A stretch of 56,441 nt of DNA from Chloroflexota bacterium. GTDB lineage: Bacteria > Chloroflexota > UBA11872 > VXOZ01. Of the stretch, positions 24,214 to 45,430 are shown piece by piece (the first letter of the stretch is position 1; every line of letters begins with the position of its first letter). The stretch covers positions 1-56,441 of the forward strand of contig JAPOQA010000001.1 of NCBI GenBank assembly GCA_026710945.1. The letters are read 5' to 3'. The notes beneath the pieces are model-generated. The model was not told the DNA's origin and ran no database searches. It saw only the letters and a list, made by a program, of their open reading frames with translations. Both the position numbers and the translations under genes were made by a program.

Positions 24214-25731
24214 TCAGGGCCCAGATTCGTCACTCTCTTCCTCAAAGATGTGCTGGATACTCTCGCCAAAGTCTCGCGCTTCGTCGTCGTACGTTGCAAA
24301 GGGATTTGGCATTTCCAGCACCCGGCCATGGGCGGCGATGGCTTTCCAGTCCAGCACGTAGGGTATGACATCCCAACTATTGTTGGCGGCCACGTCCTCC
24401 CAGTCGTCCACGTAGTCATAGGCGAGAAAGAAATAGCGCCGATCCCACATGAGGTTCTCCAGATTTGACCTCAGGTCTTGCCACGGGATGGCCGTATCGG
24501 CCCCGGCGGCGGCCAGCGCGCGCAACGCCAGACTCCGCCCGTGGGCGCGTGTGTCGATTGGCGCTTGCGTCTCGGCCGTATAGACGGCGTCGCCTTCCGC
24601 CCAATAGAGATTCCGGTGCAGCTTGGCCAGCACGTCGAAGAGACTGATCGACGGGTCAATTTGGTGATAGGAGAGATCGAGTTTTATCAGGTCTGGGTCG
24701 GTCCAGGCCTGGTCGCTGCCGGCATAGCGCTTGATTTGCTCATGCTTCGTAACCCAATCCAAATAGCCATCGAGTCGCGCCGGGTCCCGCTCGAGTTCGT
24801 CCAGCACCCACGCCCAATTTTCCAGAGTCCATTCCGTATCCGCGTCGCGCCCCACAAAGCGCCGCTCGGCCTCACGCAGATAGCCTCGCTGCACCTCAAT
24901 GGCGGGGATGTACTCGTCGTTATCGGTACCCACCGTCCAACGGCCGCCGGTAGTCGCGGCAATGCGGCGGAGGTCTCGCACTGGATCGGCAAGGACAAGC
25001 TGCGGGCTCCAGCCCTGCTCGAGCAACTGGGCAACCAGCGCGGTCGTGCCAATCTTCAGCGCCGTCGTGTACTCCGAGCGATTTACGTCGCCGACGATGA
25101 CGTGCAACCGGCGGTACGTACGCTCCGCCAGTGGCTCGTCCCGCAGATTGATGATGGGCCGTCCGCCAAAGCGCACGCGATGGCTTACATCGATGGTTAC
25201 GAATTGCGCCCGCTGGGAGAGGGCAAAAGCAGCCGGGGTATCGTCGCCGCGGGGCAGCAGGCAGCCGGCTCCCGTGTAAATCTGGCGGGTAACGAGAAAC
25301 GGGAGCATGCCATCGACAAAGTCGCTATCGTACGGACTCTGCCGGATGCAATAATTCTCATGGTAGCCGAACGTATGGCCGAAATAGTCTGTGTTGTTCT
25401 TGACGAAGTAGGCCTGCGACTGCAATTCGGCGGCTTTCACGGCTTGGTTGATGATGGTCTCGCCCGCTCGCTCATGGGCGACGATGTCGGTCAGCGTGCG
25501 GCACTCAGCCGTAGCATGTTCCAGGTGACCAAGGTCCAGGTACATACGTCCGCCATTGAACAGAAAGCCGCCGTTTCCCGGCACCTCGCCCCATTCGCGG
25601 GGAGGCGGGTCAATCAGACCGTGTCGACACCCGCGAAAGATAGCATCCTTCACCAGCAGGGCAGCGCGCACAGGCTGCATACTGCCTACACAGCCGTATT
25701 CTATTTCGGTGCCGAACAGAGCATCTTCCAT
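24214..25731 (-). CDS. pafA: Pup ligase PafA-like protein
   Basis: A 505-residue glutamine-synthetase-like ligase that attaches the Pup C-terminal glutamate to substrate lysines. It begins GTEIEYG (residues 7-13, ATP/Mg-binding), lacks the insertion that marks Dop, and has NGGRMYLDLGHLEHATAECR with Asp66 in the position of the catalytic aspartate of PafA. Further PafA/Dop blocks are VKNNTDYFGHTFGYHENYC, LPFLVTRQIYTGAGCL, NLRDEPL and YRRLHVIVGDVNRSEYTTAL. Compared with the usual 'SHPEYATAEC' the histidine-proline segment is altered (GHLEHATAEC), and the C-terminus is about 50 residues longer than in Mycobacterium. The neighbouring gene is the better Dop match, so this is assigned as ligase. 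It lies 311 bases downstream of pup. Confidence 0.85.
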   Translation of the reverse strand: MEDALFGTEIEYGCVGSMQPVRAALLVKDAIFRGCRHGLIDPPPREWGEVPGNGGFLFNGGRMYLDLGHLEHATAECRTLTDIVAHERAGETIINQAVKAAELQSQAYFVKNNTDYFGHTFGYHENYCIRQSPYDSDFVDGMLPFLVTRQIYTGAGCLLPRGDDTPAAFALSQRAQFVTIDVSHRVRFGGRPIINLRDEPLAERTYRRLHVIVGDVNRSEYTTALKIGTTALVAQLLEQGWSPQLVLADPVRDLRRIAATTGGRWTVGTDNDEYIPAIEVQRGYLREAERRFVGRDADTEWTLENWAWVLDELERDPARLDGYLDWVTKHEQIKRYAGSDQAWTDPDLIKLDLSYHQIDPSISLFDVLAKLHRNLYWAEGDAVYTAETQAPIDTRAHGRSLALRALAAAGADTAIPWQDLRSNLENLMWDRRYFFLAYDYVDDWEDVAANNSWDVIPYVLDWKAIAAHGRVLEMPNPFATYDDEARDFGESIQHIFEEESDESGP

Positions 25732-26042
25732 GCTGCGTATTCCAATGTGGCGTGTGCTTAGCCGGACGAGTGCGGCGCTAGTTTTCCGCGTACGATTGTA
25801 ATGGACATTCTGACCTAGCGGACAATGTAAACTCAGGCGACCTACTCTTCACGGGAGTTCATGGAGAAAGGCCGAAAGGCTACTGAAACATGCAAAAGTA
25901 GATACATGTGCCAAGAGCGTTCGATTGTTCGCCGGCCTCTCAATAAAGTTTGCCATTAGCATGGGATTCGCGGGGGAATAATTCGAACTTCACCGAGAGT
26001 TACTCGACCGGCGCCTCGGATGCGTGGCTTCGCGACCGTTGG
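25732..26042. other. Spacer between pup and pafA
   Basis: No open frame of note on the minus strand. Weak -35/-10-like sequences (TTGTCC and TACAAT on the minus strand, near 25800-25830) are possible but poorly spaced, so a separate pafA promoter is only suspected. Confidence 0.35.
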
Positions 26043-26267
26043 CTACTCTCCACCAGGCTGCGGTGTGGGGTCGGGCACCTCGCGAATGATGCGCTTGATC
26101 TCTTCGTCAAGATCGTCGGTTTCGGTTTTCTCCGGCGCCTCAGTGGGCGTTTCCGTGGGCGCCTCGGTGCCTGCCTTGAAAGAACGCGGGCCACCCCGCA
26201 GCAACCCCTGCCACGCTGTAGTGTTGGAGAGTTCTTTCTGAAATCCATTCCCAGCATACCACGTCAC
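26043..26267 (-). CDS. pup: Prokaryotic ubiquitin-like protein Pup (C-terminal Gly-Gly-Glu)
   Basis: A 74-residue Pup. The middle ETDDLDEEIKRIIREV (49-64) aligns with the ETDDLLDEIDDVLEE helix of mycobacterial Pup, and the protein ends PGGE, a Gly-Gly-Glu that would need no deamidation before ligation. A Thr/Pro/Glu-rich linker (TEAPTETPTEAPEK, 34-47) precedes the helix. The N-terminus (MTWYAGNGFQKELSNTTAWQ) is unlike mycobacterial Pup. The start is GTG at 26267, overlapping the dop stop by four bases (GTGA), with a perfect AAGGAGG six bases upstream inside dop. A longer in-frame reading to 26360 lies within dop and is not credible. It sits between dop and pafA on the same strand, as in classical pup loci. 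No other Pup-like frame is present. Confidence 0.9.
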   Translation of the reverse strand: MTWYAGNGFQKELSNTTAWQGLLRGGPRSFKAGTEAPTETPTEAPEKTETDDLDEEIKRIIREVPDPTPQPGGE

Positions 26268-27778
26268 GAGTCGCCTCCTTGTTGCACTGCTCGGCGGAGT
26301 TCTTCGATTGTTTGACACCCATCCACCAATTCTTGCTGTCTCTCCACTGTGGCTCCCCACAGTTCATTCAGAGATAGAGTGAAGGGCGCTCCGTTGTGCC
26401 CAAAGGTGACGGATCCCCACTCCATTTCCGTAATGTACGGCGCGAACTTGGCGAGGCAAGCTGCGCGCACCGTGGCACGCGTGCCTGCGGGGGCTGCGGT
26501 CTCCGCGCGGTCGATGTCCGCATCCGTCACAATGCGCTGCATCCGTCCGGCACGGGTCAGCATGTGGTAGAGGCTCACCGCAGGGTCCACCATGTGGTAC
26601 GCGAGATCAAGCCGCAGCACCGCCGGGTCATCCCAGTTGACGGCGTCTTCACCGCTGATCTGGGCGAAGAGCGCGAGCTTTGCCACCCAATCCAGACGGT
26701 CGCGCAGGCGCGTGGGGTTCGCATCCAGCAGATCAAGCACGGTTCCCCACTCATCCAGCACCCAATCGGTCTCGTCATCGCGATGGCGGTATCGTTGCGC
26801 CGCTTCCCAATAGAGGCGCTGGATGTCAATGGCGCGCAGTGTAGAACCGTCGGCCATTGCAAGGGGCTGCTGCAATTTGAGATCGCGGGAGACCGTTTGG
26901 AGTGCCTGCACAGGGTGTCGGAGTTGCACCCGTGGCGCAAGACCTTCCTCGACCAGATCGAGCATCAAGGCCGTGGCGCCGACGCGCAATGCCGTGGCGA
27001 ATTCGGAGCAATTGGCATCGCCAATGATAACGTGCAACCGGCGGTACTTCTGGGGGTTGGCATGCGGTTCGTCCCGCGTATTGAAGATCGGGCGCTGTGT
27101 AGTAGTGTTGATGCCAACTTCGGTCTCAAAGAAGTCCGCCCGCTGGCTAATTTGAAAACCGCCGGTGCGGCTCGTTGCCGTCTCATACGCCGCTTTCCCC
27201 GCGCCCGCATAAATCTGACGGGTGACGAAAAAGGGGATGCAGGCTGAAATCAGGTAGTCTAAAGACACGCTGCGGCTCACAAGATAATTTTCGTGGCAGC
27301 CGTAACTCCTACCGTGATAGTCTGAGTTGTTCTTGACGAGGCGCACGCCGTTCTCTGGTCCGACGGCGGCGTTGCGGGCCTGTTGGGCACGGAAGACCAC
27401 ACGCTCGCCGGCCCTGTCTTGGGCTACGAGATCATGCAGCGAGAGACACGCATCGGTGCAGTATTCGGGATGATTGTGGTCGTTGTAGAGACGCGCGCCA
27501 TTGGCAAGCACGGTATCGGCGAGGAGGTCCTGTCGGCTGAGATGCCTGCTCTTGGCAGTGTTGCCGCGCAGGTCGTGCGGGTCTTGGTCCAAGCGTTTAA
27601 CTCGTTTGCCGCGCAGGTCTACGCGCGGGTTTTCCGCCGTGTAGTCCCACCCGCGGAAACAGTCCGCCAGCGGCGCGCTGCGCACGAGCATGGCCGCCTC
27701 GTAGGCGAAATCCACGGTTTCCGCGGCGTTGGCGCAGAGCATGCCGTACTCGGTCTCAATTCCCACCGGGCGATTCAT
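26264..27778 (-). CDS. dop: Pup deamidase/depupylase Dop
   Basis: A 504-residue Dop, the same length as the mycobacterial enzyme. It begins GIETEYG (6-12); the Dop-loop region follows (about 49-90, RVDLRGKRVKRLDQDPHDLR and more), then NGARLYNDHNHPEYCTDAC with the catalytic Asp100, LVKNNSDYHGRSYGCHENYL, FNTRDEPHANPQKYRRLHVI and IGDANCSEFATALRVG. These match Dop rather than PafA. Because Pup here already ends in Glu, deamidation is not required and the likely role is depupylation. It heads the dop-pup-pafA set on the minus strand; upstream lie only repeats, so the promoter is in 27779-27900. Confidence 0.93.
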   Translation of the reverse strand: MNRPVGIETEYGMLCANAAETVDFAYEAAMLVRSAPLADCFRGWDYTAENPRVDLRGKRVKRLDQDPHDLRGNTAKSRHLSRQDLLADTVLANGARLYNDHNHPEYCTDACLSLHDLVAQDRAGERVVFRAQQARNAAVGPENGVRLVKNNSDYHGRSYGCHENYLVSRSVSLDYLISACIPFFVTRQIYAGAGKAAYETATSRTGGFQISQRADFFETEVGINTTTQRPIFNTRDEPHANPQKYRRLHVIIGDANCSEFATALRVGATALMLDLVEEGLAPRVQLRHPVQALQTVSRDLKLQQPLAMADGSTLRAIDIQRLYWEAAQRYRHRDDETDWVLDEWGTVLDLLDANPTRLRDRLDWVAKLALFAQISGEDAVNWDDPAVLRLDLAYHMVDPAVSLYHMLTRAGRMQRIVTDADIDRAETAAPAGTRATVRAACLAKFAPYITEMEWGSVTFGHNGAPFTLSLNELWGATVERQQELVDGCQTIEELRRAVQQGGDS

Positions 27779-28631
27779 GTGTCTATCCTGACTTTGCGAT
27801 TGTAGAATCTAGTATAGCAAGCCGCAGCGCGATTGGACGCCGCGTCCGCGAGACCGTCGCGTCCGCGGAGTCGCCGCACGTCGAGAGGGATTTACACAAC
27901 GTGCTCAGGATTGAGACACACAGAAATGTAGCGCGGGGGCTTGTCCCCATACCGGAAATCGTTCTGGCCTTGTAGCGCGGGGGCTTGTCCCCCGCTGGCC
28001 TGGCACGTGTTACCCAAACGGGCTGCTTTTGGTCGGTCGAGCAACTCGCGTGCCCCGTGCAGGTTGCAGACCCGCACCTACCGGAGATCGCTCCGGCCTT
28101 GTAGCGCGGGGGCTTGTCCCCCGCTGGCTTGGCACGTGCTACCCAAATGGGCTGACTAGGGTCGGTCGAGCAACTCGCGCGCCCCGTGCAGGTTGCAAAC
28201 CTGCACCTACCGGAAATCACTCCGGCCTTGTAGCGCGGGGGCTTGTCCCCCGCCGGCTTGGCGCGTGGTACCCAAATGGGCTGCTTTTGGTCGGCAGAGC
28301 AACTCCCGCACCCCGTGCAGGTTGCAAACCCGCACCTACCGGAAATCGCTCCGGCCTTGTAGCGCGGGGGCTTGTCCCCCGCTCGCTTGGCGCGTGGTAC
28401 CCAAATGGGCTGACTAGGGTCGGTCGAGCAACTCGCGCGCCATGTGCAGGTTACAAACCTGCACCTACCGGAAACCGCTCCGGCCTTGTAGCGCGGGGGC
28501 TTGTCCCCCGCTGGCTTGGCGCGTGGCACCCAAATGGGCTGCTCTTGGTAGGTCGAGCAACTCGCGCGCCCCGTGCAGGTTGCAAACCTGCACCTACCGG
28601 CGATTGCTCTGGGCAAAAACGCGTTGCCGGC
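27779..28631. repeat. Array of five 129-bp tandem repeats
   Basis: Units begin (TGTAGCGCGGGGG) at 27971, 28100, 28229, 28358 and 28487, an exact 129-base period, to about 28615. A truncated start also occurs at 27926. Each unit has two palindromes: GCGGGGGCTTGTCCCCCGC, and GTGCAGGTTGCAAACCTGCAC (9-bp stem). Odd units carry GGCTGCTTTTGGTCGG (CTCTTGGTAGG in the fifth), even units GGCTGACTAGGGTCGG, so the array alternates as a 258-base higher-order repeat. Because 129 is a multiple of three, long open frames cross it on both strands (277 and 508 codons) with no family likeness; they are artefacts of periodicity. The first 190 bases (27779-27970) are otherwise plain sequence that would include the dop promoter. 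Confidence 0.9.
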
Positions 28632-29516
28632 TTAGCGGGGATCCTGCGGGCCGATGTCGCCTTCCGCCAGGATGCCGTAGAGTTCCGGTCGGCGGAAGCG
28701 GGGATGGAAGACGCCTTGCGAGCGGCGCTCGGCGAGGAGTTGCTTATCGAGGTCGGCAGTGACCATCACTTCGTCATCGGCGTCATCCGGCGAGGCCGCC
28801 ACCAGTTGTCCCAGGGGATTGTAAACCACGACCATGGGATTACTGTAGTGCGCGCTCCCGCCGGTTGGCGGCGGCCCACAGGCGTTGATCGCGACGAGAA
28901 AGACCCCGTTATCGATGGCGCGCGCGGGAAACGTGCGGCCGGCGTAGTCTTTCCAGGCGCGGTTGCGGCTGGCGTGGTCCGGCGGCTCGCCCCAGTCACC
29001 GACCGACCAGACGTAGGGTGCCAGAATGACCTCAGCCCCTTGCAACGCCACCATGCGGCTCGACTCCGGCAGCCAGTTGTCGAAGCAGATGTTCACGCCA
29101 ACTTTGGCGACACCAATGTCGATTACGGGGGGAGTGCCGCCGCCGCGCCAGTAACCCACCTCCGCCGGTGGGATGTGTATCTTGCGCGACTTGCCAATGT
29201 ACCCATCAGAACCCACGATCACGTAGGTGTTATACACAATATCGCAGTCGTTTTCGGCAATGCCGGCGGCGAGCATGACGTTGTGCTCCCGCGCCAGGTC
29301 TACGAGCGCCTGCGTGGAAGGTCCCGGCACCGGCTCGGACGCTTCCCAGATTGCCGGTGTGATCGAATAGCCGCTCAGACCAAGTTCCGGAAAGCAGATG
29401 AGATCGGGATTCTCCGCCTTGGCCCGCACGACCCACGCGGCGTGATGATCAAGGTTCTCCCGCGGCGACGCCGGGCGGCTGCACAAGGAGACTGCCGTGA
29501 CACGAAAGCTATCCAT
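28632..29516 (-). CDS. Carbon-nitrogen hydrolase (nitrilase superfamily)
   Basis: A 294-residue CN-hydrolase. The catalytic triad is visible: Glu in ICFPELGLSGYS (about residue 44), Lys in IGKSRKIHIPP, and Cys in VGVNICFDNWLPE. The family amidases and N-carbamoylases act on non-peptide C-N bonds; the substrate cannot be identified. The start at 29516 has a weak AGCTTTCG-type upstream. It abuts the repeat array downstream and has no operon partner. Confidence 0.92.
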   Translation of the reverse strand: MDSFRVTAVSLCSRPASPRENLDHHAAWVVRAKAENPDLICFPELGLSGYSITPAIWEASEPVPGPSTQALVDLAREHNVMLAAGIAENDCDIVYNTYVIVGSDGYIGKSRKIHIPPAEVGYWRGGGTPPVIDIGVAKVGVNICFDNWLPESSRMVALQGAEVILAPYVWSVGDWGEPPDHASRNRAWKDYAGRTFPARAIDNGVFLVAINACGPPPTGGSAHYSNPMVVVYNPLGQLVAASPDDADDEVMVTADLDKQLLAERRSQGVFHPRFRRPELYGILAEGDIGPQDPR

Positions 29517-29873
29517 AGGAAGCTGTATCTGGCGAGTTGTAATGCAATGGCATAAAATTTGTCTTCCTCAAAGGAGCGAGATTTGAGCACATCCGCACAT
29601 AGCGTGCCACACTACCACTCCGATTGCAGTATTAGGATCAGACCTGGTAAGGCATAGACTTACCACTTGACCTCAGCGCTTAAGAGCCACATTGATTATC
29701 CATCGGCTCACACATCCGCGCCATGGGCGAGTTTCCATATCCATGCCTCATTGCAGCGAAAAGCACAGCAGCCTCGGCGCACGTAGGGCAACATCTGACT
29801 GGGAGCAGGGACTAGTGACCAAGTTCACAGGGGCACAATACCGGAGAGCCAGAAAAAGAAGCACCTTTTGGGC
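29517..29873. other. Gene-free spacer
   Basis: No supported gene and no repeat recognised. Base composition shifts to AT-richer sequence here and stays so through the AAA/PIN pair to about 31.9 kb. An open frame at 29692-29922 plus lacks family features and overlaps the 3' end of the PIN-like gene. Confidence 0.4.
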
Positions 29874-30371
29874 TCATTCTCCCATTAGTTCTGGGCAAAC
29901 AAAGTCCACTTCGACACCGTGATCTTGGAGCGCTACACGGTGAAGCCACCAGTCCGTATCTGAAGCGTTTAGAATCTTCGGATCGGTCCCACTGGCAACA
30001 GCTACGGCAACAAACTTTCGATCATCCTGATCAAAAGAAAACAGTCTTGGGTCAGTTGGAAATTCCACAAATCCACGTTCTGCGTGAGGACTTATGTATA
30101 TTCTGCGGCAGTGTTTTGGATTCGCCTGGTTCTCGAAGAGCCACTTGAAAAATGAATCTCCAAGCCCAGGTTGACCTGATGGGTGAAGGTTTCTACGGTA
30201 TTCGTCCAGAATTAGGTTCTCGTAATCTAGCAAGAGGATGCACTCTCTGCGCAGTTTGCTTAACCTGGCAATACACTCACTGACGCACTCTTGATCTGCT
30301 TGCTCAGCTTTCCCGTTAGCAACGACGGCGACATTTGTATCCATTACAAAGTCCAACTTCCGCATACTCAA
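29874..30371 (-). CDS. PIN-like putative nuclease, partner of AAA ATPase
   Basis: A 165-residue protein with a PIN-type layout: MDTNVAVVANG near the N-terminus (Asp11), LDYENLILDEY (acidic Glu57), FDQDDRKFVAVA (Asp114/116/117) and LNASDTDWWLH (Asp138/140). These acidic clusters sit in the order of the four metal-binding acids of PIN RNases. I do not recognise a named family. Its ATG at 30371 overlaps the AAA gene stop by four bases (ATGA), so the two are coupled. Composition is AT-richer than nearby genes, suggesting transfer. It may be the effector of a two-gene defence or toxin-antitoxin-like module. Confidence 0.75.
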   Translation of the reverse strand: MSMRKLDFVMDTNVAVVANGKAEQADQECVSECIARLSKLRRECILLLDYENLILDEYRRNLHPSGQPGLGDSFFKWLFENQANPKHCRRIYISPHAERGFVEFPTDPRLFSFDQDDRKFVAVAVASGTDPKILNASDTDWWLHRVALQDHGVEVDFVCPELMGE

Positions 30372-31729
30372 TGAGCCAGTCCCTGTCTCTTGATAGCAGC
30401 ATTGCTCATTGCTGCCATCTCACCAAATTGGTCGCCAAAGAAATCCTCTGGCCAATTTGAAATATTCCCAAATTTGTCTAGTTCGAGTTCGCTCAAATTC
30501 GAGGTCCCATCGCCGTCTGTCGAGCAAAAATACAAACGCACCCTCTCTTGATCAATCTCTCCTTCAGCAATTCGACGCTGCAGTCTGCGGAGCAAGTGCT
30601 CGCTGTGACTCTCAAACAAGATTTGCGTCCTTCGTTCATTCCAAGCGTCTATGAATACATCGGCAAGCTCAGCCTGAGTCGATGGATGCAAATGAATGTC
30701 TGGCTGCTCTAGGATCACCGTTGACCCTTCGCGTACGAAAAAGCACTGCACTAACACGGGTAATATCTGCGATACGCCAAACCCAATGTCGGTGAGAAAG
30801 ACTTCTGGCGAACTAGAGGTCTTGCGAACCTTTACTTCAAAGAGCCGTTTACCCTCACCTAGCGGCTCAACTTGAAAGTCATGAACAATTCCAAGACGCT
30901 TGAGCCACTGTGCGACATACTTCTCTACGGTGAGGTGCGCTTCACCCAATCTTTCGAAATTCCCATCGCGAGTTGACAACATCGACTCAATTGCAAACTC
31001 GCCACCGGAGCCAACCCCTGAGGGCTGGGCACCCGACCACTGATAGATGCGCCTTGGATATATGCGAAAAGGGCCAACGTATCGCAAATCCTGGAGTTGC
31101 CTTGTTAGCTCATACCTAAGGCCAAATATGAAGCTACGGTCAGCGAACAGGTCTTCAGCCTGATATGGAAACTCACAAAACTTCGACTGGCGTGAATAAC
31201 GATCAGGAGTCCAAGTAGACTCTGCTAGATCAAGATTCTTGCCCCTCTCGTACACTCTATATGCAAACTCACCATCTTTTTTTTTCATGCCGAACGATCG
31301 ACTGTCGGCTAACTGATATTCCATTTCCTCCAACAACAGCGATCTCTTGGAGTCGATTGTATTCTCTCTTACTTCAACACTAAACCCAATCTCTTCTCCC
31401 TCACTTACAAACCCACCTTTGTAAACATCGGGTACCCTAATTCTTTCCTTAGATTTCCACTTGAGAGATATCTTTAGGGCTCTAGTCGTGTCGTGTTCAT
31501 GTATGACACTATCAAAGTCGCCGAGGTCCACAAGTGTATTCTCATCGCCAAAGTGAAATACAATACCTTGGTCAGGAGCATCGACTGTCTGTTTCATAAG
31601 TAGCAAACTTTGGATGAGACTAGACTTACCAGAACTGTTGGAGCCAAAAAAACCGGTTATCGGCTTAAGCGTTACATCTCCAGTGCTCTCCCAGGGTTTA
31701 AAGTTCTCCAGCCGCATGTTTGTCAACAT
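30368..31729 (-). CDS. AAA/ABC-type ATPase with DUF3696 C-terminus (OLD/RecF-like)
   Basis: A 453-residue ATPase. The N-terminus has LENFKPW..GDVTLKPITGFFG and the Walker A SNSSGKSSLIQSLLLMKQT (29-47); the C-terminal half has Walker B in VILEQPDIHLHPSTQAELAD, followed by the H-loop in ILFESHSEHLLRRLQRRI. This is the pattern of DUF3696-containing AAA_15/AAA_21 proteins, close to ABC-type sensor ATPases found in phage defence operons. The last part (EGEIDQERVRLYFC to SAMSNAAIKRQG) is the DUF3696-like tail. It overlaps the PIN-like gene by four bases. No nuclease (Toprim) domain is evident in the ATPase itself, so the PIN protein would supply it. Confidence 0.85.
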   Translation of the reverse strand: MLTNMRLENFKPWESTGDVTLKPITGFFGSNSSGKSSLIQSLLLMKQTVDAPDQGIVFHFGDENTLVDLGDFDSVIHEHDTTRALKISLKWKSKERIRVPDVYKGGFVSEGEEIGFSVEVRENTIDSKRSLLLEEMEYQLADSRSFGMKKKDGEFAYRVYERGKNLDLAESTWTPDRYSRQSKFCEFPYQAEDLFADRSFIFGLRYELTRQLQDLRYVGPFRIYPRRIYQWSGAQPSGVGSGGEFAIESMLSTRDGNFERLGEAHLTVEKYVAQWLKRLGIVHDFQVEPLGEGKRLFEVKVRKTSSSPEVFLTDIGFGVSQILPVLVQCFFVREGSTVILEQPDIHLHPSTQAELADVFIDAWNERRTQILFESHSEHLLRRLQRRIAEGEIDQERVRLYFCSTDGDGTSNLSELELDKFGNISNWPEDFFGDQFGEMAAMSNAAIKRQGLAH

Positions 31730-31932
31730 CTGAAATTACTCTGCTAGTAAGTTCACAAGACAAGGTCGCCCCAAGACGAACACTAACACCTGACGGGCTA
31801 CCTAGCAAATTTGAACTCGATGTCTTACTGCGTGACTCTTGACCACATACCCCCTACTTGCGGGATTGACGGGAAGCTGCTAAATTACATAACAATATGG
31901 GCATCGTACGCATTCTCAGAGAGGAGCATGCT

Positions 31933-33144
31933 ATGCGACTTCTAGACTGGAAAAGAACTATTCTGCTGGCGGCACTGGCGCTGCTGGCGTCGCTCGTGAT
32001 TGCCTGCGGCGGGGATGCCGCTCCTGACGAAGAGAAGGACATGGCAGCGGCGGAATTACCGCCCTTCAAGGTTGGCGTGATGGAGTCGCTCACTGGACCG
32101 GGCGAGACCTATGGCAGCGTGGCGGTGCAAGCCAAGCAGATGGCCGTGGATGAGATTAACGCGGCGGGCGGCATAAACGGCCGCATGCTGGAGCTCATAG
32201 TCGAGGACTCCAAGTGCTCGGCCCAAGACGCCATTACTGCCTACAATAAGCTTACCGACGTGGACGGCGTCAAGATTATTCTGGGAACGTCTTGCAGCGG
32301 CGCAATGCTGGGGGCGGCCCCTCTGGCGGAAGCCGATGGAGTAATCCTCTTTTCCGGCTTGGCGACGAATCCGGATATTGCCAATGCTGGCGACTACATC
32401 TTCCGCACGTCGATCAGCGATGCCCTATTGGGCGTTGACGTTGGCAACACCATGTGGGCGGACGGTGTGCGCAACCTGGCGACCATCTCCGAGACCACCG
32501 ACTACGCCGAGGGTGTGCGCCGTACCTCCGTGGCGCAATTCGAAAAGCGCGGCGGCACGGTGGTGGCGGAGGAACGCTATGGTTCCGATACCACTGACTT
32601 CAGGACCCAGCTCACAAAGCTGATTGGCGAAAGCCCGGACGCGCTGCTGATTGCCGCGCAGTCTGAGTTCACCGGCGGCACCATCATCAAGCAGGTGCGC
32701 GAGTTGGGCTTTGAAGGGCAGATATATTCCGACATCGTACCGGTTGGCGCCACGGCACTTGAAATCGCCGGCGATGCCGCTGCCGGCGCCAAGGCCATCT
32801 TGGCGGATATTTCTCCGAATAACGCCAAAGGCCAGGAAGTGCTGGCCAATTTCCGGGCGCGGTATGACTATGTCACGCTGGCCTGGTTCTTGGGCTCGGC
32901 CTATGACGATGTCTACATCACGGCCGAATGCCTCAAGCAGACTGACGACGATCAGGACGCTGACGGCATGCGCGACTGCCTGTACGCCATCACTTGGTCC
33001 GGCGCTATTGGCGAGAACTACAGCTTCGATGAGAACGGCGAGGTCGTCGGCCTTACCAACGTGGTGGTGGAAGTTCTGCCCATAGCCGAGCGGACTCCGG
33101 AGAACCAGGGCTACAAGGTGCTCGGCAGCGCGCCGACTGAATAG
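31933..33144 (+). CDS. Branched-chain amino acid-type ABC substrate-binding lipoprotein (copy 1)
   Basis: A LivK-type periplasmic binding protein of about 403 residues. The lipoprotein signal ends at the lipobox SLVIAC after a hydrophobic stretch (LLAALALLASLVIAC). The mature part begins with FKVGVMESLTGPGETYGSVA and has INGRMLELIVEDSKCSAQDA, both typical of type I periplasmic-binding folds (Peripla_BP_6). ATG 31933 follows GAGAGGAG. It is followed by a close paralogue and then the permease genes, which fixes its job as the ligand receptor of an importer. The ligand (branched-chain amino acid, urea, amide or other) cannot be told. Confidence 0.93.
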   Translation: MRLLDWKRTILLAALALLASLVIACGGDAAPDEEKDMAAAELPPFKVGVMESLTGPGETYGSVAVQAKQMAVDEINAAGGINGRMLELIVEDSKCSAQDAITAYNKLTDVDGVKIILGTSCSGAMLGAAPLAEADGVILFSGLATNPDIANAGDYIFRTSISDALLGVDVGNTMWADGVRNLATISETTDYAEGVRRTSVAQFEKRGGTVVAEERYGSDTTDFRTQLTKLIGESPDALLIAAQSEFTGGTIIKQVRELGFEGQIYSDIVPVGATALEIAGDAAAGAKAILADISPNNAKGQEVLANFRARYDYVTLAWFLGSAYDDVYITAECLKQTDDDQDADGMRDCLYAITWSGAIGENYSFDENGEVVGLTNVVVEVLPIAERTPENQGYKVLGSAPTE

Positions 33145-33205
33145 GGCAGGGCATATTCCAGCACGAATTAGCTGCCCTAGCGCACGTTCAAAGAGGAATT
33201 GCGCC

Positions 33206-34411
33206 ATGCGTCAAAGACCGCCGATCCGACTTTTCTCGCTCATAGCGCTTGCGCTGCTGGCCTTGCTCGTCATCGGCTGCGGCGGCGCTGCAGTCACAGA
33301 GCAGGAAATGCCGGAGGGTGAAGAACCGCCCTTTAGGATAGGCGTGATGGAGTCGCTCACCGGCCCCGGCGAGACGTACGGCAACGTGGCGATCCGCGCC
33401 AAGCAGATGGCCGTGGACGAAATCAACGCCGCGGGCGGCGTTGACGGCCGCTTGCTTGAACTCGTTGTGGAAGACTCCCAGTGCAGCGCCAAGGAAGCGG
33501 TCGCCGCGTACCGCAAGCTGACCGACGTCGACGGTGTGAAGATTATCCTTGGCACCTCCTGCAGCGGCGCCATGCTCGGGGTCGCCCCGCTGGCGGAGGC
33601 CGACGGGGTCATCCTGTTCTCGGGGCTGGCGAGCAACCCGGACATCGCCAACGCAGGCGACTACATCTTTCGCACCCAAATCAGCGACGTTGAGGTCGGC
33701 ATCGGCACCGGGAACCTGATGTGGGCCGACGGCGTCCGCAAGCTGGCTACCATCACCGAAGCCACCGACTACGCCGAAGGCGTGCGCCGCACCACAGTGG
33801 CCCAGTTCACGAAACGGGGCGGACAGGTGGTGTCCCAGGAGTCGTACGCGTCCGACGTTACCGACTTTCGGACCCAATTGAGCAAACTGTTCGACGAGCA
33901 GCCGGACGCGCTGCATCTGGCGCCGCAGTCCGAGTTCGCGGCCGGTGTCATCATCAAGCAGGCGCGCGAGCTGGGCTACGCAGGCCCCATCTACGCCGAG
34001 ACGATTTCCGTGGGCACGACGGCCCTGGAGATCGCCGGCGACCACGCCACCGGGATGAAAGCTATCACGGCAGACCTGCACCCCGACAACGCCAAAGCCC
34101 AAGAGGTCTTGGCAAACTTCCGGCAACGCTACGACTACGTCACATTGCCGTGGCACCTCGGCTCCGCCTATGACAACGTGTACATTGCCGCCGAGTGTCT
34201 CAGACGAACCGGCGATGACCAAGACGCGGATGGCTTCCGCGACTGCATGTACGAAATAACCTGGAGCGGCGCGATCGGCAACGACTACAGCTTCGACGCC
34301 GACGGCGAAGTGGTGGGACTTTCCAGACTGGTCGTAGAGGTCCTGCCCGTTGCCGAAAGGACGGCGGAAAACCACGGCTACAGGGTGTTGGGGAGCGCGC
34401 CGACCGAATAG
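33206..34411 (+). CDS. Branched-chain amino acid-type ABC substrate-binding lipoprotein (copy 2)
   Basis: A 401-residue paralogue of the preceding gene, alike along its whole length (both share GVMESLTGPGETYG, KQMAVDEINAAGG, VDGVKIILGTSCSGAMLG and end LGSAPTE). The lipobox is LLVIGC. It differs in ligand-lining loops, e.g. KAITADLHPDNAKAQEVLAN versus KAILADISPNNAKGQEVLAN. Two receptors may serve one transporter with different ligands. It starts 61 bases downstream of copy 1 on the same strand, with AGAGGAATT before ATG 33206. Confidence 0.93.
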   Translation: MRQRPPIRLFSLIALALLALLVIGCGGAAVTEQEMPEGEEPPFRIGVMESLTGPGETYGNVAIRAKQMAVDEINAAGGVDGRLLELVVEDSQCSAKEAVAAYRKLTDVDGVKIILGTSCSGAMLGVAPLAEADGVILFSGLASNPDIANAGDYIFRTQISDVEVGIGTGNLMWADGVRKLATITEATDYAEGVRRTTVAQFTKRGGQVVSQESYASDVTDFRTQLSKLFDEQPDALHLAPQSEFAAGVIIKQARELGYAGPIYAETISVGTTALEIAGDHATGMKAITADLHPDNAKAQEVLANFRQRYDYVTLPWHLGSAYDNVYIAAECLRRTGDDQDADGFRDCMYEITWSGAIGNDYSFDADGEVVGLSRLVVEVLPVAERTAENHGYRVLGSAPTE

Positions 34412-41542: not shown

Positions 41543-43297
41543 TCATTTTTTCTGTTTAGGCGGGGGGGGGGCAGGGAGTTCACGAAGTCGGTCTATCAAC
41601 ACTCCCAAAAATACTGCGATCTGAGCGGTAGAACACTTCTTGGTCACTCGGCGAATCGCTCGACCGACATCCTCGTCTGCGTACTTATGCTTCTCAAGAT
41701 AGTCAATCATGGCTTCGATATCTGGTTGACGCTCTGACTGTTGCGAACGATCCTTCGGTGGATACTGGGAAGGATGTGCCACACGCGAAGGGCCGTCGTC
41801 TGCGCGTTGCACGCTCTCAGTAATCTGAATAAGGTCCTTTGCAATCGGCTGAGATGACTTCTCAGGTTGTTTGACCGGGAGGCTGCCGAACTTACCCCCT
41901 TTGCTCGCGAGATGCTTGCGGTGTTTGATGAGCAAGGTTTGACCAATCTCAAGCTTGACCCACTGCCACTCAAAGCCATCCACCGATGACGGTATGGGTT
42001 CTTTGACCGCTTTAGCATTCCCCAAGCCGACAACGTGCAGGTCGCCATTATCCAAGTGGACCAAAGCATCTGCGCGTGTTTTCGGCGCGACCCAGTGGAG
42101 TAGGTCTGGATACTGATAATCCTTTGGTGTTTTGCCATTCGCGATTGCAGATAGCCGTTCGGCCTCTGACCTAAAGAGTGCAGAATCCAGAACTTCAACA
42201 GGTGGATCCGTTTCAGCATTCACGCCAAGAATAGCGCCAGCCATGGTTGCGATCGTATCGGTGTCAGTACCAATGGCGTTGGCGGCAATTCGCAATGCTG
42301 CTTCGGGTTGTGGCTCGCACCAGGTTAAGCCTACTGCTGCCACTGCTGTTAGCATTCCGCTTCCGCGCCGCGCCGGGTCGGCAAGGTCCAAGCGATCTAC
42401 GAGAGCGTCGTATCGCTCAGAGCCAGTCTGCTTTTCCGTATCAGCAGTAACTTGAATCGTGTTCCGGCAACTGTCGATCGCCCGTGTCCAGGCATCGGCA
42501 AATGCGCCGGACTTGTGCTCAAATGATCCTCGCCAGTACTGCCCAATCTCCATGTCGCCCTGAATCATCGCGGGTATCTTGGCAGCAACTTCTAAAGCAT
42601 CCATAAGGTCGTCAGATGTCGGGTAGTCTCCAGCGTTCAGCGCATGGGCAAGTGCTAATGCGTGAAGAACCGCACCCATCATCCCGTCCGGGTGAGAGTG
42701 AGTACAAATGGCATTGCGTACAACGTCTGGCAGGAAAGTTGTCGGATCATTGAGAGCGTGCGCAGCCCAAACGTGCGGCTGAATGCGCATCGCGGCGCCG
42801 TTGCCCCCGGAGTCAGTCCACCCTTTGTAAGTGTTGGCGAACCACTGTACCCGTGGCCGGGCAAGGTTCGAAGCTGCGGCACTCGTGGACTTGCCTCCTC
42901 CAAGCGCATAGCTTAACCAAACCGGGAGTTCAACTTTGGAAAAGGCCTCTACGTCAAAGCCGTCTGCGCGGATAGATCTGCCGGTAGCTAGCCGCAACTG
43001 CGAATCATCCGAATAACACCCTTTCGGAAGGTTAGCAGTGACACCTACGCGGCCCCCTATCCGCCGCTTCCACTCGATGGGTTGGCAAAGAGGCTGACCC
43101 GCCGTGCGCCTCTCAAGTCCTCTCTTGTCCGTCAACTCGCTAATCCAGCCAAGAGCGTCACCGTATGCTGCCCAGAGCGCAGATCGTTGAACTCTTTCAG
43201 AATGGCTGATGGCACTGGACTCTTCGTCTTGGGTGTGGCTTGACCCCCCCCTCCCACTCAGCTTTACACCGTCATCAAACAACCGTGGTTCAGTCAT
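41543..43297 (-). CDS. ADP-ribosylglycohydrolase (ARH/DraG-like), partner of DarT-like enzyme
   Basis: A 584-residue protein with an N-terminal ADP-ribosylglycohydrolase domain: GDALG (46-50), YSDDSQLRLA with the two metal-binding aspartates (95-104), GGNGAAMR (164-171), ICTHSHPDG (197-205) and the second metal motif GTDTDTIATMAGAILG (343-358). The last 200 residues are a charged extension ending in a proline run (PAPPPPKQKK). Start ATG 43297 overlaps the DarT-like stop by four bases (ATGA) and is preceded by GGAGGTG, so the two proteins are translationally coupled. ARH enzymes remove ADP-ribose; here it is likely to reverse or restrain the DarT-like enzyme. A longer reading to 43321 lies inside the DarT gene. 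Confidence 0.87.
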   Translation of the reverse strand: MTEPRLFDDGVKLSGRGGSSHTQDEESSAISHSERVQRSALWAAYGDALGWISELTDKRGLERRTAGQPLCQPIEWKRRIGGRVGVTANLPKGCYSDDSQLRLATGRSIRADGFDVEAFSKVELPVWLSYALGGGKSTSAAASNLARPRVQWFANTYKGWTDSGGNGAAMRIQPHVWAAHALNDPTTFLPDVVRNAICTHSHPDGMMGAVLHALALAHALNAGDYPTSDDLMDALEVAAKIPAMIQGDMEIGQYWRGSFEHKSGAFADAWTRAIDSCRNTIQVTADTEKQTGSERYDALVDRLDLADPARRGSGMLTAVAAVGLTWCEPQPEAALRIAANAIGTDTDTIATMAGAILGVNAETDPPVEVLDSALFRSEAERLSAIANGKTPKDYQYPDLLHWVAPKTRADALVHLDNGDLHVVGLGNAKAVKEPIPSSVDGFEWQWVKLEIGQTLLIKHRKHLASKGGKFGSLPVKQPEKSSQPIAKDLIQITESVQRADDGPSRVAHPSQYPPKDRSQQSERQPDIEAMIDYLEKHKYADEDVGRAIRRVTKKCSTAQIAVFLGVLIDRLRELPAPPPPKQKK

Positions 43298-43989
43298 TCG
43301 AACACCTCCGGTGCAAGACATACTGGAACGTCTAGACCTAGGACTCCCAAAGCCCCTTCAATATCCTCCAGAGACCGTTCTAGCTGTACATCAATTTGCT
43401 GTAGATGATCGCAAGACAGTTCACCCGGGTATAGGACTTCAGCTTGTCGGTCAGTGGGCCAAGCTGCCAACATGCCGTCGGTGCGACTGTGACGCTCATC
43501 ATAGCGACCGAGTACCGTGTCCGTGAACATTAAGGAGAATCCAGCTAAGCCCTCCGCACGTTTACAGGCAGGATATATGTTGTTGGTCGTAGTAAACACA
43601 ACGCCAGGGTGGGTAAGAACACAAGGGCGAAACGATAGAATGACCCAAGGGTTGTGCTCCACAGGGTGCCATTTCGTTGAATGACTAAACATCCAGTTAT
43701 TGATGCGCTCTACTGAGAGATTAACATAGTCAAGCCATTCCGGGTCTTTTCGATGAGCTGCATTCGGTTGATAGACGTGCTCAAGGTATTTGTCGCTGGA
43801 CACCCGTTTTCGGCTCTTGACTGCCTCTGCGGCTATGATCCCAACTGCGCCTGTCGTTGTAGTGAAGTGAACCACCTGGCTGATCCTACGACGTTCCGCA
43901 GCTACTGCGATAGCCGGGCAACCCGGAAGACGATCGATCTCTTCCACAGTTCTAGGCCGAGCCGGAATGCAGTCTCGTTCAGATACCAC
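43294..43989 (-). CDS. DarT-like (DUF4433) DNA ADP-ribosyltransferase
   Basis: A 231-residue protein of the DarT type. A typical DarT start (ISQVVHFTTTTGAVGIIAAE, NAD-binding His41/Thr43) is followed by RVSSDKYLEHVYQPNAAH, WLDYVNLSVERINNWMF, WVILSFRPCVLTHPGVVFTT, and near the end RQAEVLYPGELSCDHLQQID, whose Glu184 fits the catalytic glutamate in the QAEVLV motif. DarT enzymes use NAD+ to modify bases in single-stranded DNA, stop replication and act in phage defence. It starts at GTG 43989 after AAGGT inside the helicase 3' end. It is followed by an ARH-type hydrolase, not by a macrodomain DarG. Confidence 0.85.
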   Translation of the reverse strand: MVSERDCIPARPRTVEEIDRLPGCPAIAVAAERRRISQVVHFTTTTGAVGIIAAEAVKSRKRVSSDKYLEHVYQPNAAHRKDPEWLDYVNLSVERINNWMFSHSTKWHPVEHNPWVILSFRPCVLTHPGVVFTTTNNIYPACKRAEGLAGFSLMFTDTVLGRYDERHSRTDGMLAAWPTDRQAEVLYPGELSCDHLQQIDVQLERSLEDIEGALGVLGLDVPVCLAPEVFE

Positions 43990-43990
43990 T

Positions 43991-45430
43991 CTAGACCTTT
44001 ACGAGATCGTAAGTCTCAGAATCAATGTAGTCGAACACTGAAGAGCGCTCACCCGGCTTATAGCCCAACATGACAGTCTTTCTCGCACGCCCCACTCCCA
44101 TTGCTACCAATCTACGTAGTGACTCGAGTGTGCCGTCCCCATCCTCATTGCCGTGTGGTGTAACCTCGTTGCTCAGTCCAGGCAATAGAACATGATCGAA
44201 TTCAAGGCCTTTCGCCGAATGGATCATAGACAACGCAACCAGTTCCGGCCCCGTCGGCCACTCTGGGTTTCGAGTTAGCTCGCAATATCGAATATTCCGC
44301 TTTCCCAATGTATTTCTTAGGCAGTCGAACCAGCCCCCGCCCCAAGGCTGGAGAATTGCGATGGTTTCGCTAGTGTGGAGAAAAGGTTGCACCTGATCAA
44401 GCATGTAGTCAATCTGCGCGCTATACTTGCCCACCACTACTCGGGGGCGTATGTCAGACATCTGGCAGGACTCCTCGTCTGGAACAACACCGTCAGCGTC
44501 TGGTGGTAAGTCTGAAACAAGTGAAGAAGCAAGCCGTGCGATCTCCGCCGTGTTACGATGATTGCGAGCAAGCCTAAAGGCCATCCCTTGCCTCCTCATA
44601 TCAATGCCTAGTTCTCCCCACTGGAAGCCTTGGGCATAGATTCGTTGCGCAGTATCAATTATGAATGTGGTCACGTGATCTTCATTCAAGTGCGCCAAGA
44701 TGGTGCGGATCTGGTTTGCGGAAAGATCCTGCGTTTCATCGACAACCACAATGTCATAACCTTGACAAGGCACTCTCGCGGCCTTTAGCGCAACGTCATT
44801 CCAATCGACCGTGCCTTTCTCTGCTTTCATTATTTCATACGGAGCAATAACTTGGTCCAAAATCTTGTGACGAAGTTCTCGAGGGACCGCTGGCGCTCTT
44901 CCACGTCCAGACCTCGTTGCATTTAGATACCTGTCTCGGTGTCCAAGCGGGAACCTGCCCTGGACGTACTTGACCTCATCGTAGAAGTATTCCTGATTTT
45001 CAAAAGGAACACCTGCCTCTCTCAGTAAGGAACATATCCACTGACGTCCGTCGTCCTTTAGGATGTTTGGTTCCTCAAGAAGACTCCTCGCCCAATACCC
45101 AAAAGTCTCAACATCGAGGACGATGTCATCCAAAATGTCGACCTGCTCTGCTGCGAGCTCACTAATGTACCCTCTCAATGTTCGATTGAATGTTAGTACC
45201 AGAACTCGCACAGGATCTATAGAACCTAAGCGCGCACGTCGATTCCGACGCGAATTGCATAGCTGTCGGAGGCGAAGCAACGCTGCGGTAGTTTTGCCGC
45301 TACCTGCAGCACCTCGAATCAGTCGGAAGCCCGGTTGAGCATCAGTCAATATTCTGAGTTGTTCGGGGGTAGGAGTTATTCTCTGTAATGTACGCACTTG
45401 CGCCCCGACTATACGGTATAGCATACTCAT
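43991..45430 (-). CDS. UvrD/Rep-type superfamily 1 helicase-like protein
   Basis: A 479-residue SF1 helicase. Motif I is RGAAGSGKTTAALLRL (39-54), motif II VVVDETQDLSANQI (228-241), motif IV region RLARNHRNTAEIA, motif V MIHSAKGLEFDHVLLPG and motif VI VGRARKTVMLGY. It is shorter than UvrD/Rep and has no nuclease domain, so it resembles the helicases that accompany defence modules (for instance GajB). The ATG at 45430 is taken; later starts (GTG 45397) are possible. One base separates its stop from the DarT-like start, forming a three-gene unit. It begins 67 bases downstream of apbC, so cotranscription with that gene is not excluded. Confidence 0.9.
   Translation of the reverse strand: MSMLYRIVGAQVRTLQRITPTPEQLRILTDAQPGFRLIRGAAGSGKTTAALLRLRQLCNSRRNRRARLGSIDPVRVLVLTFNRTLRGYISELAAEQVDILDDIVLDVETFGYWARSLLEEPNILKDDGRQWICSLLREAGVPFENQEYFYDEVKYVQGRFPLGHRDRYLNATRSGRGRAPAVPRELRHKILDQVIAPYEIMKAEKGTVDWNDVALKAARVPCQGYDIVVVDETQDLSANQIRTILAHLNEDHVTTFIIDTAQRIYAQGFQWGELGIDMRRQGMAFRLARNHRNTAEIARLASSLVSDLPPDADGVVPDEESCQMSDIRPRVVVGKYSAQIDYMLDQVQPFLHTSETIAILQPWGGGWFDCLRNTLGKRNIRYCELTRNPEWPTGPELVALSMIHSAKGLEFDHVLLPGLSNEVTPHGNEDGDGTLESLRRLVAMGVGRARKTVMLGYKPGERSSVFDYIDSETYDLVKV

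Follow-up and report, generated by a model that had tools for sequence, protein, structure and literature searches.

The gene pair at positions 29874–31729 of the window (the whole 56,441-nucleotide stretch of Chloroflexota DNA that we analyzed) is almost certainly a copy of HEC-03, a candidate defense system, as judged by its matches to the HEC-03A and HEC-03B profiles. We put the full reading, in which a stand-alone, horizontally acquired HEC-03 copy joins a PARIS-like sensor ATPase to an RNA-cutting PIN protein against phage, at a probability of roughly 60%. Both open reading frames were present on the minus strand at the coordinates first described, with the ATPase gene (30368–31729, 453 aa) upstream of the PIN-like gene (29874–30371, 165 aa). 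The ATPase matched PADLOC HEC-03B (PDLC04148) over nearly its full length with E=2.1e-129, and the runner-up ATPase profiles in PADLOC-DB, NsnB (1.1e-63) and PDC-M55A (5.5e-62), followed by a wide margin. The PIN protein matched HEC-03A (PDLC04147) and no other PADLOC profile, its residues 8–161 aligning to profile positions 3–153 of 159 with E=2.4e-38. The original prediction could point to no named system that joins these two proteins, which was not supported, the pair being HEC-03A/HEC-03B of PADLOC.

HEC-03 was reportedly defined by Payne et al., in a 2024 preprint (doi 10.1101/2024.01.29.577857), as a candidate embedded in Hma operons. The name itself, "Hma-embedded candidate," comes from this preprint, which is cited in PMC12988326; the latter describes antiviral activity for several HECs, HEC-06 included. 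HEC-03 is also listed among the defense systems of the rumen in a second paper (PMC13356809). A literature search found no paper linking DUF3696 with PIN.

The original prediction gave the two genes a four-base overlap. That they overlap or abut was upheld; the exact overlap (30368–30371, minus strand, 4 nt reading TTGA as ATPase stop and PIN start) requires the TTG start, and an in-frame ATG two codons (six bases) further on would instead leave a 2-nt gap. Resting on the TTG start, the 4-nt overlap is probable, not certain, and with either start the genes show the two-gene adjacency of HEC-03. In relatives, a 4-nt overlap is available to 48 of 79 pairs and a 1-nt overlap to 13 of 79 (61 of 79 together), and 78 of the 79 measurable gaps between the genes were 25 nt or less. 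Since such overlaps are common in relatives, tight coupling of ATPase and PIN is a feature of the family. At the locus we found no sigma-70-type promoter and a count of terminator-like sites not above chance, and the stretch 3′ of the PIN stop held no unusual fold.

Distribution and neighbors of the pair

Of 323 PIN relatives that a genome-wide scan gave, the best 80 were kept for pairing analysis. The ATPase gene lay directly upstream on the same strand in all of these best 80 of 323, which by record title span at least a dozen phyla; the taxa include Chloroflexota, Cyanobacteria, Planctomycetota, Bacteroidota, Acidobacteria, several proteobacterial classes, Desulfobacterales, Verrucomicrobia, Nitrospira, Nitrospinota, Spirochaetales, Latescibacterota and others. 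Within the phylum of the window, 14 of 400 genomes had a PIN match, and the ATPase adjoined it in 14 of 14. The co-occurrence on which the original prediction depended was therefore found elsewhere. Identity matrices of the two proteins correlated with r=0.50, above all 999 permutations, a value for which shared descent alone would suffice.

HEC-03 also occurred on plasmids of Aeromonas, Acinetobacter, Azotobacter, Tistrella, and Rhodococcus, with the ATPase adjoining the PIN gene in every one of the five plasmids inspected. Some of these copies were on conjugative plasmids and adjoined toxin-antitoxin genes. A search of viral contigs and phage records found no PIN relatives.

Among the loci examined, the PIN gene was never seen without the ATPase. 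The ATPase was seen without an intact PIN partner in two genomes, G062 (locus L072), where no PIN gene follows it, and G190 (locus L041), where about 100 residues are missing, in frame, from the PIN; both lie beside Hma-like genes. This asymmetry is what would be expected if the PIN protein were the harmful partner, and it suits that reading, with the cases being few and assembly error possible.

The surroundings of relatives were of the defense type that had been proposed. In genome G145 the gene order was HmaA-HmaB-[ATPase-PIN]-HmaC, and in G004, of the same genus as the window, a helicase ORF whose tail resembles HmaA was followed by ATPase-PIN, then HmaB, and further on by PDC-M38A and PDC-M38B. 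The tail of this helicase ORF is that of the helicase next to a methylase in G062, and the G190 locus adjoins an HmaB-like gene. Embedding among Hma genes was thus seen in the relatives G145, G004 and G062, and not in the window copy. When flanks were compared informally with control regions, Hma genes flanked the relatives but the control regions held defense-like genes too, and we claim no measured enrichment. DndA/SspA matches beside two relatives were left out of the defense count, as they probably represent ordinary cysteine desulfurases.

In 6 of 97 loci (L155, L156, L157, L159, L083 and L146), an RNA ligase gene (PF09414) directly followed the PIN gene. Plasmids of Aeromonas, Azotobacter, and Tistrella carry these three-gene loci, as do two MAGs, and the position of the ligase suggests RNA damage and repair, with RNA as the substrate. 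No RNA ligase gene lies 3′ of the window pair, where the next gene encodes a C-N hydrolase. An Acinetobacter soli plasmid (L158, 1.8–11.3 kb) carried the ATPase split into two ORFs ahead of the PIN gene, with an HNH endonuclease gene after them and DpdE/DrmMI-like helicase and methylase genes before them.

The PIN protein and the ATPase

Pfam recognized the smaller protein only weakly, as PIN_3 (E=0.095), but it was modeled with confidence as a PIN fold. The AlphaFold model had a mean pLDDT of 94.9, and its best Foldseek matches were the PIN domains AF0591, SMG6, PAE0151, VapC, and FitB, with E values of ∼1e-3 to 1e-2. In a second structural comparison, the top rank went to VapC toxins (Z 10.1 and rmsd 3.2 Å across 129 residues). 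The acids noticed in the original prediction were conserved across homologues: among 81 aligned sequences, D11 was found in 79, E57 in 78, D117 and D138 in all 81, and D140 in 77, with 9 of the 81 deviating at one of these positions. D49, W141, and C159 were invariant in the same alignment. We are confident, on the basis of the model and this alignment, that the 165-aa protein has a PIN fold with the acids expected for a metal-dependent nuclease. PIN domains mostly cut RNA, and we infer that this protein would do so, although likeness to the PIN fold is no proof. Two other matches were set aside as chance: one to sigma-70 region 4 (E=0.016), given the confident PIN fold, and the only one that the PIN profile found among PDB sequences, to a TIM barrel designed de novo (E=0.0046).

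The structural matches raise the alternative that the pair is a toxin-antitoxin or plasmid-stability module with no dedicated sensing of phage, in which the ATPase merely neutralizes a PIN toxin. VapC and FitB toxins are the best structural matches and share the fold and acidic residues, the genes are tightly coupled, and the pair occurs on conjugative plasmids adjoining toxin-antitoxin genes. Identity to VapC/FitB is low, however, at 10–19%, and the partner is an ATPase rather than VapB or FitA. No small DNA-binding antitoxin of the VapBC kind was found upstream of the PIN gene; a 453-aa ATPase stands there instead, as in the best 80 of 323 relatives. This ATPase is as conserved as the PIN protein (mean identity across relatives 52% and 50%, respectively), and several copies of the pair lie inside Hma. 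We regard a toxin-antitoxin module as unlikely and a defense role for the HEC-03 pair as likely.

The ATPase, of the ABC/SMC-head type, carries Pfam domains AAA_15, AAA_21, and, at its C terminus, DUF3696, all above curated cut-offs. Walker A (GSNSSGKS) occupies residues 29–36, a GFGVSQ motif residues 316–321, and a Walker B-like segment, VILEQPDIHLHP, residues ∼338–349. The protein contains LEQPDIHLHP, and the earlier description of a sensor-type ABC ATPase with this motif matched the ORF exactly. In an alignment of 69 sequences, G29, N31, S32, S33, and K35 of Walker A and H346-L347-H348-P349 were invariant. The model (mean pLDDT 90.3) was nearest to the solved structures of Septu PtuA, Gabija GajA, OLD, Rad50 and SMC heads, with PtuA, GajA, and OLD the top Foldseek matches.

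ABC ATPases carry a catalytic Glu where HEC-03B has a Gln. Walker B of the window protein reads E341-Q342, with Gln in 69 of 69 sequences, and alignment with PtuA places Q342 at the catalytic Glu position. At the equivalent site, solved PtuA entries read DQ in two cases and DE in another, the DQ resembling the well-known Glu-to-Gln trap mutant. A Gln here is mostly common to related DUF3696 ATPases and is therefore a trait of the wider branch. Q342 may slow ATP hydrolysis in HEC-03B.

These features bear on a second alternative, a Septu-like constitutive effector in which the ATPase would be a targeting subunit, not an inhibitor, loading on foreign or aberrant nucleic acid for the PIN protein to cut in place. 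Among the nearest solved ATPases are PtuA of Septu, OLD, and Rad50, proteins that bind DNA or act as part of nuclease complexes, and the Gln at the catalytic position, present in all 69 sequences, could favor long-lived ATP-bound clamps. Against this, PIN domains are established mostly as cutters of RNA, the subset of loci linked to RNA ligase favors RNA damage, and the fact that no PIN was found without the ATPase also fits inhibition. Such an effector seems to us rather unlikely, if somewhat less so than a toxin-antitoxin module.

Proposed mechanism and related systems

The preferred reading borrows its logic from PARIS, in which the nuclease AriB is held by an ATPase hexamer until the latter senses phage proteins and lets it go, after which AriB cuts tRNA (PMC12409363). 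In HEC-03, the ATPase would serve as sensor and scaffold and keep the PIN protein from acting. A cue from the phage, such as a phage protein, a DNA end, or a nucleotide change, would shift the ATPase complex so that the PIN protein is freed or armed, and cleavage of RNA (tRNA, rRNA, or mRNA) would then halt translation and phage growth. Sensing, restraint, release, RNA cleavage, and protection are all proposed; judged by its anatomy, HEC-03 would work as PARIS does, with PIN replacing Toprim. The step in which the ATPase restrains and then releases the PIN protein is offered tentatively, as slightly short of an even bet.

PARIS shares with HEC-03 the two-gene logic of an ATPase sensor with a small nuclease and is its likely mechanistic model. 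The effectors differ, AriB being a Toprim/DUF4435 protein; no such match was found for the partner here, which has a PIN fold, and the ATPase matched HEC-03B far above AriA (E of 2e-129 versus 3e-24). Septu (PtuA with the HNH protein PtuB) and Gabija/OLD (ATPase-Toprim) use ATPases of the same superfamily as HEC-03B, whereas HEC-03 has neither an HNH partner nor a Toprim domain and its nuclease is a separate PIN protein. Pfam and PADLOC gave no HNH match in the PIN-fold partner, and Pfam at E values up to 1 found no Toprim domain in the ATPase, only AAA/P-loop domains and DUF3696. Menshen (NsnB) and PDC-M55A supply the nearest other ATPase profiles, but their match scores were half that of HEC-03B, and among the 33 other window ORFs scanned no Nsn family, the partners NsnA and NsnC included, was detected at E≤1e-10.

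A more specific version makes HEC-03 a PIN-based counterpart of PARIS in its own right: an ATP-locked, SMC-type ATPase with a natural Gln at the catalytic Glu position would hold an RNA-cutting PIN protein and release it on infection, and an added RNA ligase in plasmid and some chromosomal lineages would reseal the RNA. We consider this version improbable as a whole; if true, resealing of cut RNA by the ligase would make the HEC-03 response reversible. With this analysis, a candidate known only from databases becomes a concrete two-gene system open to experiment, its effector fold named, its catalytic residues probably identified, and its ATPase possibly ATP-locked. Relatives ready for study include the Aeromonas and Azotobacter plasmid copies and an RNA-ligase variant hinting at reversible RNA damage.

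The window copy and its setting

The window copy agrees with HEC-03 in both protein matches and in its two-gene operon, and it has relatives inside Hma operons, one of them in the same genus. It differs in standing alone, apart from Hma operons, and its genome has no match to HmaB. HEC-03 thus travels alone, outside the Hma operons that served to define it.

The AT-rich composition pointed out in the original prediction was borne out, the pair having 47.1% GC compared with 59.1% in the remaining window. Comparison of positions 28000–34000 with same-genus genomes by blastn delimited a low-GC insert (47.7%) at 29524–31853 that contains the pair, and outside it no 1.86-kb stretch of the window fell below 51% GC. 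The insert sits between the gene for the C-N hydrolase and those for branched-chain-type ABC substrate-binding proteins; homology to sister genomes stops at ∼29516–29523 and resumes at ∼31854. The slot contains two other ORFs in G003 and, in G004 and G005, an ORF of 670–679 aa that points either way with respect to its flanks. Because other genes fill the slot in three sister genomes, the pair is probably recent cargo of a variable slot. Low GC, the variable cargo slot, and the conjugative plasmid copies together point to mobility and horizontal acquisition.

The immediate neighbors of the window pair are housekeeping genes, with no obvious defense island, and this counts against the preferred reading, as does the lack of an HmaB match in the genome. 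This location is what a housekeeping RNA-processing pair with no defense role would predict. Presence of the pair is patchy, however, both across the phylum (14 of 400 genomes) and among sister genomes, 4 of 5 of which lack it, and the low GC, the copies on plasmids, and the embedding of relatives among Hma genes also speak against a housekeeping function, which we consider very improbable.

A second low-GC patch of the window holds three adjacent minus-strand genes (41543–45430), encoding a UvrD/GajB-like helicase (43991–45430), a look-alike, by eye, of the DarT ADP-ribosyltransferase (43294–43989), and an ADP-ribosylglycohydrolase-like protein (41543–43321); these are possibly a second defense or toxin-antitoxin module. 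Two matches to the Pup-ligase family lie on the minus strand at 24214–27778, one of them at 26264–27778, so that a pupylation system is probably present in the organism. Positions 28000–28620, which separate the Pup-ligase-family genes from the C-N hydrolase gene, contain repeats in units of ∼130 bp, one frame of which reads GLVARGLVPRWLGAWYPNGL....
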